Below are positions 47,247 to 49,008 of a DNA stretch of 64,000 bases, piece by piece; within the stretch, counting starts at the first letter, position 1, and every line of letters begins with the position of its first letter. The translations under genes and the position numbers were made by a program. Below the pieces are notes generated by a model, which was given only the letters and a program-made list of their open reading frames with translations, had not been told where the DNA came from and searched no databases. Source of the stretch: Sulfurimonas sp. HSL-1656 (GTDB lineage: Bacteria > Campylobacterota > Campylobacteria > Campylobacterales > Sulfurimonadaceae); assembly GCF_039645585.1 (NCBI RefSeq), contig NZ_CP147915.1, forward strand, positions 496,001 through 560,000, written 5' to 3'.

Positions 47247-47251
47247 TCGCC

Positions 47252-47277
47252 GGGGCTGCGGCCCCCGCTGTTTTTTC
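47252..47277 (+). terminator. Intrinsic terminator of the multihaem cytochrome gene
   Basis: GGGGC-TGCG-GCCCC stem-loop followed by a six-T run (47272-47277), five bases after the stop codon. It lies between the cytochrome gene and the convergent ABC-F gene. Confidence 0.75.
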
Positions 47278-47282
47278 CTTTT

Positions 47283-48776
47283 TCAGGGTGCTTCGGTGAT
47301 CAGGACTTCTGCTCCCTGCTCTACAAAGTGCCACCGCGTGGTGACGGTCTGCGCCAGAAACGGACGGTCGTGACTGACGAGGAGCAGGGCCCCTTCATAG
47401 GCGGTCAGGGCGGCTTCGAGCAGTTCGATCGCTTCGAGGTCCAGGTGGTTGGTGGGTTCGTCCATGATGATAAGCCCCGGCTTCTTCTCCATGCCCAGCG
47501 CCAGCATTAGTTTGCGCACCTCGCCCGGACTGGGGATCGTGCTCTGCAGCAGCAGCCCCGGATCGCTTCCCAAGCGGGTGATCAGGCCCATCACTTCTCC
47601 CTTGCGCACGGCGTCCAGCCCGGAAACCTCCTGCATCAGTTGTCGTGATGCCGATGCACCGACCTCCTGGGGGATGTAGAGCACCTCGTCGTACCATGTC
47701 TGCGTCGCAAGGAGGTGGCGCAGAAAACTGCTTTTGCCGCTCCCGTTTGGGCCGGTGATGCCGATTTTTTCTCCCGCATCGATCCGCAGTCTCGGCACCT
47801 TCAGCCGCCGCCGGTCGTTTAGGTCGAGTGTAACGGCTTCGACGGTGACGGGAAAGAGCTTTCGGTAGCGTCCCGCTTCCAGGACAATCCCTTTCTCGAA
47901 GACGCGCGCGACCGTCCCCCGTTCCGCTTCGGCCCGCGCGAGGCGGCTCTTATAACGCTCCAGTATCTTCCCGTCGGTCGCATCCTTCCCCGTAAAAACC
48001 GCCAGTTCCAGCTTCTTCTTGGTATCGATGTCTTTGGGGTTTACATGCCGCTTGGAGACCCGGGCGTCGGAGCGGTCCGCTTTTTGACGCTGTGCCTGTA
48101 CCTGGCGCTTGAGTTTTTTGACGGTTTTGCTGTGCCGTTCGTGCTCTTCGCGTTGAAAGGCCGCTTCTTTCGCCCGCTCCGTTTTGGCGACGGAGTAGGG
48201 GGTGTGGCGCAGGTCGGGTGCGCCCGCTCCCAGGAAAAGGGTGTGGCGGCACAAACCGTCAAGCAGCTCCCGGTCGTGGCTGATCAGTATCCCGATACCC
48301 CGGTAGCGCTGCAGGGCGGTGGTCAGCAGCGTTTTGGAGGCTTCGTCGAGGTGATTGGTCGGTTCGTCCAGGACGAGGAGGGGCGGGTTTTTGTAGAGTG
48401 CCGCGGCGATCTGGGCACGTTTGCGCTCCCCGTGGCTGAGCTGTTCCCAGCGCCATTGCCAGGCGGGCTCGATCTTTAAAGCGTCGCGCAGCCGTACCGC
48501 GTCACCGTCGAAGGCTTCCATAAAGGCGGCAAACGCCTCCGGTACCCGGTCGGTGCGCTGGTCGCAGTAGATGGCGTCGCGGTTGTGCCTTATGGTCCCG
48601 TTCGCAGGATGCAGTCGGCCGCAGATCAGTTGTGCCAGCGTCGTCTTGCCGCTGCCGTTTGGGCCGACGATACCGCTCCAGCCTTCATAAAACTGCAGGG
48701 TCAGGTTTTCAAAAAGCGGCTCGTAACTGCCGGGGTATTTGAAAGTGAGGTGTTCTATCTGGAGAGGTCGGGTCAT
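47283..48776 (-). CDS. ABC-F family ATPase (ribosome-associated, antibiotic-resistance-like)
   Basis: Soluble twin-ATPase without membrane spans, 497 aa. First ABC: Walker A GPNGSGKTT, signature LSHGERKR, Walker B LLVLDEPTNHLDE. A basic linker (about 190-290, the P-site interaction motif region) is followed by the second ABC: GPNGSGKSS, a degenerate signature SPGEVRKL, and IIMDEPTNHLD. ABC-F proteins act on the ribosome; some displace antibiotics. Size and the first-domain sequence are closer to Vga/Lsa-like members than to EttA, but this is a judgement by eye. The ATG at 48776 has AAGGAT upstream. The leader carries an attenuator-like structure (48781-48934). Confidence 0.88.
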   Translation of the reverse strand: MTRPLQIEHLTFKYPGSYEPLFENLTLQFYEGWSGIVGPNGSGKTTLAQLICGRLHPANGTIRHNRDAIYCDQRTDRVPEAFAAFMEAFDGDAVRLRDALKIEPAWQWRWEQLSHGERKRAQIAAALYKNPPLLVLDEPTNHLDEASKTLLTTALQRYRGIGILISHDRELLDGLCRHTLFLGAGAPDLRHTPYSVAKTERAKEAAFQREEHERHSKTVKKLKRQVQAQRQKADRSDARVSKRHVNPKDIDTKKKLELAVFTGKDATDGKILERYKSRLARAEAERGTVARVFEKGIVLEAGRYRKLFPVTVEAVTLDLNDRRRLKVPRLRIDAGEKIGITGPNGSGKSSFLRHLLATQTWYDEVLYIPQEVGASASRQLMQEVSGLDAVRKGEVMGLITRLGSDPGLLLQSTIPSPGEVRKLMLALGMEKKPGLIIMDEPTNHLDLEAIELLEAALTAYEGALLLVSHDRPFLAQTVTTRWHFVEQGAEVLITEAP

Positions 48777-48780
48777 GAAT

Positions 48781-48854
48781 ATCCTTGTAATCATCTGATG
48801 GACGGATCGATTATCAAGGATGGAAAGCGATGAGTGAAATTATCCTGATAATCG
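48781..48854 (-). promoter_or_regulatory. Three-arm RNA switch (candidate translational attenuator) before the ABC-F gene
   Basis: Reading the minus strand, arm 1 CGATTATCAGGAT (48854-48842) pairs with arm 2 ATCCTTGATAATCG (48821-48808): 13 bp with one bulge. Arm 2 can instead pair with arm 3 ATTACAAGGAT (48791-48781), which contains the ABC-F Shine-Dalgarno: 11 bp with one bulge. The two pairings exclude each other. Arm 1 begins just after the stop of a six-codon leader ORF. Confidence 0.6.
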
Positions 48855-48855
48855 T

Positions 48856-48876
48856 TTAGTTCAGAATAATGTTCAT
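48856..48876 (-). CDS. Six-codon leader peptide of the ABC-F gene
   Basis: The frame encodes MNIILN followed by TAA. AAGGAG lies seven bases before the ATG, a better ribosome binding site than most genes in this window have. The transcript start predicted from the -10 box is only about 20 bases upstream, and the first arm of the RNA switch starts two bases after the stop codon. Such short leader ORFs control ABC-F and erm genes by ribosome stalling. Confidence 0.55.
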   Translation of the reverse strand: MNIILN

Positions 48877-48904
48877 TGGTACGCTCCTTGTAGACAGTGG
48901 TGAC

Positions 48905-48934
48905 ATTATATACTACCGGTCTGAGCTTTGTCCA
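48905..48934 (-). promoter_or_regulatory. Promoter of the ABC-F leader transcript
   Basis: TGGACA (48934-48929) and TATAAT (48910-48905) are separated by 18 bp on the minus strand. This is one of the best -35/-10 pairs in the window. Start of transcription is expected near 48898. Confidence 0.6.
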
Positions 48935-48971
48935 GGCGCAGGCTGCCCGTTCGGTGCAGAGCGGGATGCCG

Positions 48972-48977
48972 TATAAT
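48972..48977 (+). promoter_or_regulatory. Promoter -10 box of the glycosylase gene
   Basis: TATAAT 31 bp before the ATG at 49009, which itself has AAAGGGAGGAG upstream. Confidence 0.5.
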
Positions 48978-49008
48978 GCGACCATCAGACATCAAAGGGA
49001 GGAGTGAT

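Follow-up and report, generated by a model that had tools for sequence, protein, structure and literature searches.

Is the ABC-F gene of Sulfurimonas sp. HSL-1656 controlled by the progress of a ribosome on a small upstream open reading frame (uORF)? The gene lies in a stretch of 64,000 nucleotides (NZ_CP147915.1, positions 496,001 to 560,000), hereafter the window, to which all positions below refer unless stated otherwise. The initial annotation, made from the letters alone, had described ahead of this gene a promoter, a six-codon ORF and three arms, the middle one able to pair with either of the other two. It had proposed that a ribosome held on the small ORF decides which pairing forms, as in erm and resistance ABC-F leaders. 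We looked at the parts of this leader, at its relatives, and at its computed response to the position of a ribosome.

Organization of the leader

The whole device spans positions 48934-48774 on the minus strand (Table 1). The promoter of the initial annotation, TGGACA and TATAAT separated by 18 nt, is present and matches the consensus at 11 of 12 positions; the region contains three promoter-like sites where 0.3 would be expected. We infer that transcription starts near 48898, and the transcript would thus begin just 5' of the uORF, whose six codons and AAGGAG were also found as described. A 13-nt inverted repeat, TGGTGACATTATA / TATAATGCGACCA (48898-48910 and 48972-48984), joins the −10 region of this promoter and a TATAAT ahead of the divergent endonuclease III-like gene.

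The three arms are called here arms 2, 3 and 4 (formerly 1, 2 and 3). Arm 2 starts 1 nt past the uORF stop codon, and its pairing with arm 3 (13 bp, one bulge) is exactly the one claimed. The pairing of arm 3 with arm 4 also exists with one bulge; its length is 12 bp, not 11, and it can be extended to 16 pairs. All three arms are present, and a fourth one had been missed: within the uORF, ATTATTCTGA pairs over 10 bp with TCAGGATAAT. Folded as a whole, the leader reaches its energy minimum (z −3.2; 1 of 200 shuffles as stable) in a structure made up of this uORF:arm 2 pairing plus the pairing of arm 3 with the SD arm. The alternative pairings are mutually exclusive and one of them would block the main gene, an arrangement characteristic of ribosome-mediated attenuators of resistance genes. 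The AAGGA of the main gene sits five bases 5' of its ATG. The predicted folds of the window leader comprise the two states of an ermC-type device, 1:2 plus 3:4 at rest and 2:3 when induced.

Most described ABC-F leaders use premature termination (PMC9226507, PMC10314930, PMC10201436), and the 3:4 hairpin could have been a terminator that attenuates transcription as in vmlR, msrD and cplR. However, a terminator scan of the region gave no terminator-like site, and the hairpin, which lies directly on the SD, is followed by TATTCATG, with no T run. We thus consider transcription attenuation very improbable; since no terminator is present, control should be purely translational. An Rfam search of the region returned just a chance match to a eukaryotic snoRNA, far under threshold.

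Table 1. Positions of the promoter, leader elements and ABC-F gene in the window.
Feature	Position	Strand	Description
Module (promoter, leader and ABC-F gene)	about 47248-48970	minus	Missing as a unit from sister species
Promoter	48905-48934	minus	−35 TGGACA 48934-48929, 18-nt spacer, −10 TATAAT 48910-48905
uORF Shine-Dalgarno	48884-48889	minus	AAGGAG
uORF	48856-48876	minus	MNIILN, 6 codons and TAA stop (ATG AAC ATT ATT CTG AAC TAA)
Extra arm within the uORF	48861-48870	minus	ATTATTCTGA; from the minimum free energy fold; predicted to pair with 48848-48839
Arm 2 (anti-anti-SD)	48842-48854	minus	CGATTATCAGGAT; pairing with arm 3 coevolves
Arm 3	48808-48821	minus	ATCCTTGATAATCG; includes the anti-SD core TCCTTG
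Arm 4	48781-48792	minus	GATTACAAGGAT; includes the ABC-F Shine-Dalgarno AAGGA 48786-48782
ABC-F ATPase gene	47283-48776	minus	497 aa; ATG start at 48776

The ABC-F gene and its distribution

The protein has two ABC domains, a linker and no transmembrane part, as expected of an ABC-F ATPase. Its closest solved relative is VmlR (6ha8), with which it is collinear over the full length, and the best NCBIfam model is NF000355 (ribosomal protection-like ABC-F), matched over nearly the full length with 302.1 bits, which is under the curated cut-off of 380 bits. VmlR is a pleuromutilin, lincosamide and streptogramin A resistance factor, and its own uORF is stalled at initiation (PMC9226507). By analogy, a resistance function of the window protein is likely, and its nearest relative VmlR together with a sporadic distribution suggest that it belongs to the ARE ABC-F proteins.

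The gene is absent from the seven other species of the genus that were compared. Of 228 genomes from the family, 34 (window genome included) have a homologue at about 40-45% identity, and homologues occur in other families of the order as well; those of the Arcobacteraceae are 50-81% identical to each other. A plasmid search with the ABC-F protein gave no match. In the sister species (loci L151-L153), the flanks are 87-96% identical and the module, positions 47248-48970, is missing as a whole, with unrelated short DNA in its place; since they are missing together, promoter, leader and gene came or went as one unit. In another genome (G091), several stop codons interrupt the ABC-F homologue (L014/L015), which again points to a gene that is often gained and lost. 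In the ABC-F tree the window protein branches off close to the base of the Campylobacterota clade; its own branch is long, and because of long branches its exact place is unsure. The leader needs four changes on this tree, with which one old leader with several losses and a few gains would both be compatible.

Related leaders in Campylobacterota

We found 23 distinct leaders, the one in the window and 22 others, each before an ABC-F gene, in the Arcobacteraceae, the Sulfurimonadaceae and a third Campylobacterota family; those from close relatives are not independent. All have a uORF with an ATG start, 4-6 codons and a TAA stop, an SD-like motif ahead of it, and an anti-SD arm flanked by two SD-like arms. 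At the sequence level, each of them thus shows what is expected of an attenuator: a short uORF, preceded by an SD of its own, that separates the main gene from the promoter. A TATAAT or a five-of-six match to it stands 25-46 nt 5' of the uORF in most relatives, and the distance from the uORF stop to the ABC-F start is 58-68 nt in the 22 relatives and 79 nt in the window. The initial annotation had made its case depend on homologous leaders keeping the small ORF and the alternative pairings; the 22 further leaders keep both, which supports the erm- and ABC-F-like logic that it had proposed.

The encoded peptides are alike without being identical: MNTLY, MNTLF, MNTLL, MNSLL, MNILL, MNILF, MNTSI, MNTSL and MNTL in the Arcobacteraceae, MWILN, MWILS and MWILH in the Sulfurimonadaceae, MNIKR in the other family and MNIILN in the window. 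Codon 2 of the 16 five-codon MN-type Arcobacteraceae uORFs specifies Asn, encoded by both AAT and AAC, and codons 3-5 vary among the relatives. Synonymous and non-synonymous changes in the uORF numbered 7 and 8, counts too small to carry weight. A pairing of the uORF with an arm comparable to that of the window was found in about half of the relatives.

The idea that the leader is general to the ABC-F clade was rejected: several Arcobacteraceae homologues are without it, and so is the large Sulfurimonas group of the SLKIRDLSYKY type within the Sulfurimonadaceae, in the upstream regions of which we saw no such leader. At one locus (L144) the ~120 nt before the ABC-F start are arranged differently, with a small ORF (MYLASQK) that has no clear SD and a hairpin, GTATTAAGACATTTTAATAC, directly 5' of the SD; this may be an unrelated control element.

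As an independent approach to the genome background, which was assessed with the window's other genes and with a search of the whole genome, we built a covariance model from 21 leaders, the window being left out. Its sole match in the window genome (2.56 Mb) at E values up to 10 was the flagged leader (26.1 bits, with an E of only 1.2; E 0.03 when the search was limited to the window). Across 397 Campylobacterota genomes there were seven matches at E values up to 0.001. All seven precede ABC-F genes, meaning that the leader belongs to the ABC-F gene. Six were leaders already found; the seventh (L158 in G486, positions 1506-2106 of that locus) has an intact MNILF leader, followed by an ABC-F gene that an internal deletion has reduced to ~179 aa. 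It appears to be a decaying resistance-type gene with the switch still present.

Coevolution of the arms

We then studied whether the pairings are maintained, a check in relatives that had been called for from the start. RNAalifold on a MAFFT alignment recovered the invariant anti-SD:SD core alone, with no covariation, because arm 3 takes part in both alternative pairings and the alignment misplaces arm 2 between groups. Instead, each sequence was folded on its own, and a swap test was applied in which arm 3 of each leader is paired with arm 2 of every other one. The mean energy of the 2:3 pairing was −13.1 kcal/mol for native combinations versus −9.1 kcal/mol for mismatched ones, and only 5 of 100,000 permutations matched the native value; the 2:3 pairing thus coevolves. 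For example, MNIKR leaders use GATAGC/GCTATC and Arcobacteraceae use GGATAA/TTATCC. As arm 2 follows the uORF stop and lies outside the SD, pairing is the plainest reason why it tracks arm 3. The core of the 3:4 pairing, CCTTG:CAAGG (five of the six core pairs), was unchanged in all 21 aligned relatives, and outside this SD core the swap test gave no coevolution for 3:4.

These data also bear on the DNA itself as a target. In the window, arm 2 is a near-perfect palindrome (ATTATCAGGATAAT) and arms 2 and 4 form a direct repeat, as might be expected if a transcriptional repressor bound to them. Yet the relatives alter the arm sequences while keeping their complementarity, the ABC-F SD always forms one of the arms, with the anti-SD always as its partner, and the uORF is always kept, all of which makes an operator hardly credible.

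Modelled effect of the ribosome position on the ABC-F Shine-Dalgarno

To model a ribosome, we cut the RNA away as far as 16 nt beyond the first base of the codon in the P site, a distance that corresponds to the toeprint reported for vmlR (PMC9226507). For each position we then computed how likely the ABC-F SD was to be unpaired, with folding energies that ignore cotranscriptional kinetics. In all 23 leaders the modelled SD was more accessible with the ribosome at codon 1 than at the last codon; for the window, accessibility was 0.166 at codon 1 and less than 0.001 from codon 4 on. Closing took place mostly between codons 2 and 3 in the relatives and between codons 3 and 4 in the window. In silico, the position of the stalled ribosome therefore selects the pairing. 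The proposal that a ribosome held on the leader ORF decides which pairing forms accordingly holds in the model when the ribosome is arrested within codons 1-3 in the window, or 1-2 in the relatives; it fails at or near the stop codon, where arm 2 is covered and the gene would shut. In several leaders (L022, L028, L031, L039), the modelled SD opened to only ~1-4% even when the switch was ON.

In AT-rich upstream DNA, short arms and short ORFs abound and might have come together by chance, without any function. When the stretch from the uORF stop to the SD was shuffled 100 times per leader, however, none of the 2300 shuffles reached the native switch size; the window leader had a ln-odds of 11.6, compared with at most 5.7 in its 100 shuffles. 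Among the other genes of the window, the best combination of a uORF and a gene scored 1.95. Given in addition the coevolution of arms 2 and 3, the occurrence of 23 leaders in one gene family and the unique match of the model in the genome, a chance arrangement can practically be dismissed. The 23 leaders scored 4.3 to 11.6 in a comparison of 86 homologous loci drawn from many phyla, in which the others did not exceed 2.0, with the exception of one spirochaete uORF. This homologue (L090), whose uORF MSAIFNSSGH lies ~85 nt 5' of the ABC-F start codon (near 2380-2420 of the locus), scored 7.8; it is the sole locus outside Campylobacterota in the range of the leaders and is possibly a separate attenuator.

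With no ribosome modelled, the SD was shut in the window and 12 other leaders, and partly or largely open in about 10 of the 23. The default state is thus not conserved, and in the model the window leader owes its ermC-like default-off polarity to the additional arm in the uORF. Leaders that are open without a ribosome would suit a general sensor of translation status, in which the same RNA switch answers any failure to begin or go on translating the uORF (starvation, cold, ribosome shortage), not antibiotics in particular, and the ABC-F protein is a housekeeping rescue factor; the variation of uORF codons 3-5, which makes strict recognition of a drug and a peptide unlikely, goes in the same direction. 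On the other hand, the 13 leaders predicted to be shut do not fit such a sensor, and the sporadic presence of the gene within genera resembles that of resistance genes rather than of housekeeping factors. We therefore regard a general status sensor as unlikely.

Proposed mechanism and implications

Altogether, these data lead us to propose, with a probability of about 0.8, that the leader renders an ABC-F ribosome-protection gene inducible by ribosome-mediated translational attenuation. As features of the sequence, the anatomy, conservation and coevolution of the leader are solid; the switch with ribosome position is a prediction of thermodynamic folding, and we infer that the uORF is translated and that drugs induce the ABC-F gene. 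The leader is real and conserved, and it probably functions as a translational attenuator. Pairing of the anti-SD arm 3 with arm 2 would leave the ABC-F SD free (ON), and its pairing with arm 4 would hide it (OFF). A ribosome reaching the uORF stop should cover arm 2, because the stop codon abuts this arm in the window, and the 3:4 hairpin would then form and turn the gene off. A ribosome arrested at the start or first codons would occupy the uORF arm and leave arm 2 uncovered, so that 2:3 would form first and the ABC-F gene would be translated. Without a ribosome, the window leader is predicted to fold into uORF:arm 2 plus 3:4 and to be OFF, as in ermC. Likely inducers would be drugs that halt the ribosome at initiation or immediately afterwards (pleuromutilins, lincosamides, streptogramin A), by comparison with VmlR and CplR.

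More broadly, we lean towards the view that this attenuator family is native to Campylobacterota, that it is ancient enough for leaders and ABC-F genes to have diverged together, and that it reads the progress of a ribosome on a uORF of 4-6 codons, initiation arrest opening the gene and completion closing it, without a terminator and largely irrespective of the peptide. If so, Arcobacteraceae and Sulfurimonadaceae would be inducibly tolerant to drugs acting at the initiation stage, and inducible ABC-F protection, mainly Gram-positive so far, would also be a chromosomal trait of Campylobacterota, including the Arcobacteraceae, a family with food-associated species. Susceptibility tests without an inducer could then miss the trait. 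The 23 leaders form a natural series, with the same logic, varied uORFs, and with or without the uORF arm, on what a sensor of early arrest needs. As the state without a ribosome is predicted to be shut in 13 of them and partly open in 10, uORF start-codon mutants should have opposite effects in the two groups.

Comparison with known systems

The ermC leader is a four-arm translational attenuator in which 1:2 and 3:4 pair at rest and 2:3 pairs upon an early ribosome stall. The window leader is predicted to share with it the four arms, the same resting and induced pairings and a purely translational control. It differs in that ermC encodes an rRNA methyltransferase and has a longer leader peptide with a specific macrolide arrest, whereas the uORF here has 6 codons; moreover, the uORF arm is found in just about half of the relatives.

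Among ABC-F genes, vmlR of Bacillus subtilis (uORF MIN) also combines a very short uORF with alternative RNA structures and a hairpin hiding the ABC-F SD, and arrest at the uORF start has been proposed as the signal; there, in contrast to the present leaders, regulation relies mainly on a terminator/antiterminator and on polymerase pausing (PMC9226507). It also belongs to another phylum and has another uORF sequence, and the two leaders are without demonstrated sequence homology. The cplR leader of Clostridioides difficile (uORF MR[I/M]), induced by retapamulin and lincomycin, has a short uORF and an SD-sequestering hairpin with an anti-SD element (PMC10201436). In cplR this hairpin doubles as an intrinsic terminator, complete with polyU tract, whereas only SD sequestration is seen here. 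For VmlR and CplR alike, the proposed view is that drugs which act immediately after initiation stall the ribosome on the uORF of about three codons (PMC9226507, PMC10201436), and the mechanism proposed here agrees with this.

The known ABC-F uORFs, MIN (VmlR), MR[I/M] (CplR), MK[L/Q] (VmlR2) and MAGN (LsaA) (PMC10201436) as well as MYLIFM (MsrD, PMC10314930), all come from Gram-positive bacteria or from mobile genes of such origin. The statement of the initial annotation that no case was described in Campylobacterota stood up for ABC-F genes: in the open-access literature we found no ABC-F leader from Epsilonproteobacteria, Campylobacterota or Arcobacter. The attenuation principle is known from Firmicutes; the leader family, the phylum and the SD-only form appear to be undescribed in that literature. 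In the same phylum, Campylobacter jejuni has the leader peptides leuL, trpL and metL, which are amino-acid attenuators and do not concern ABC-F genes (PMC3847290), and a MAFY peptide, suggested to be a leader before an efflux gene, again not an ABC-F gene (PMC11955535). The msrD leader (MYLIFM) resembles that of the window in having a 6-codon uORF ahead of an ABC-F gene; its peptide, MsrDL, arrests the ribosome at the stop codon in the presence of erythromycin and thereby prevents termination at the terminator (PMC10314930). Here the outcome is reversed, a ribosome at the uORF stop codon being predicted to shut the gene.
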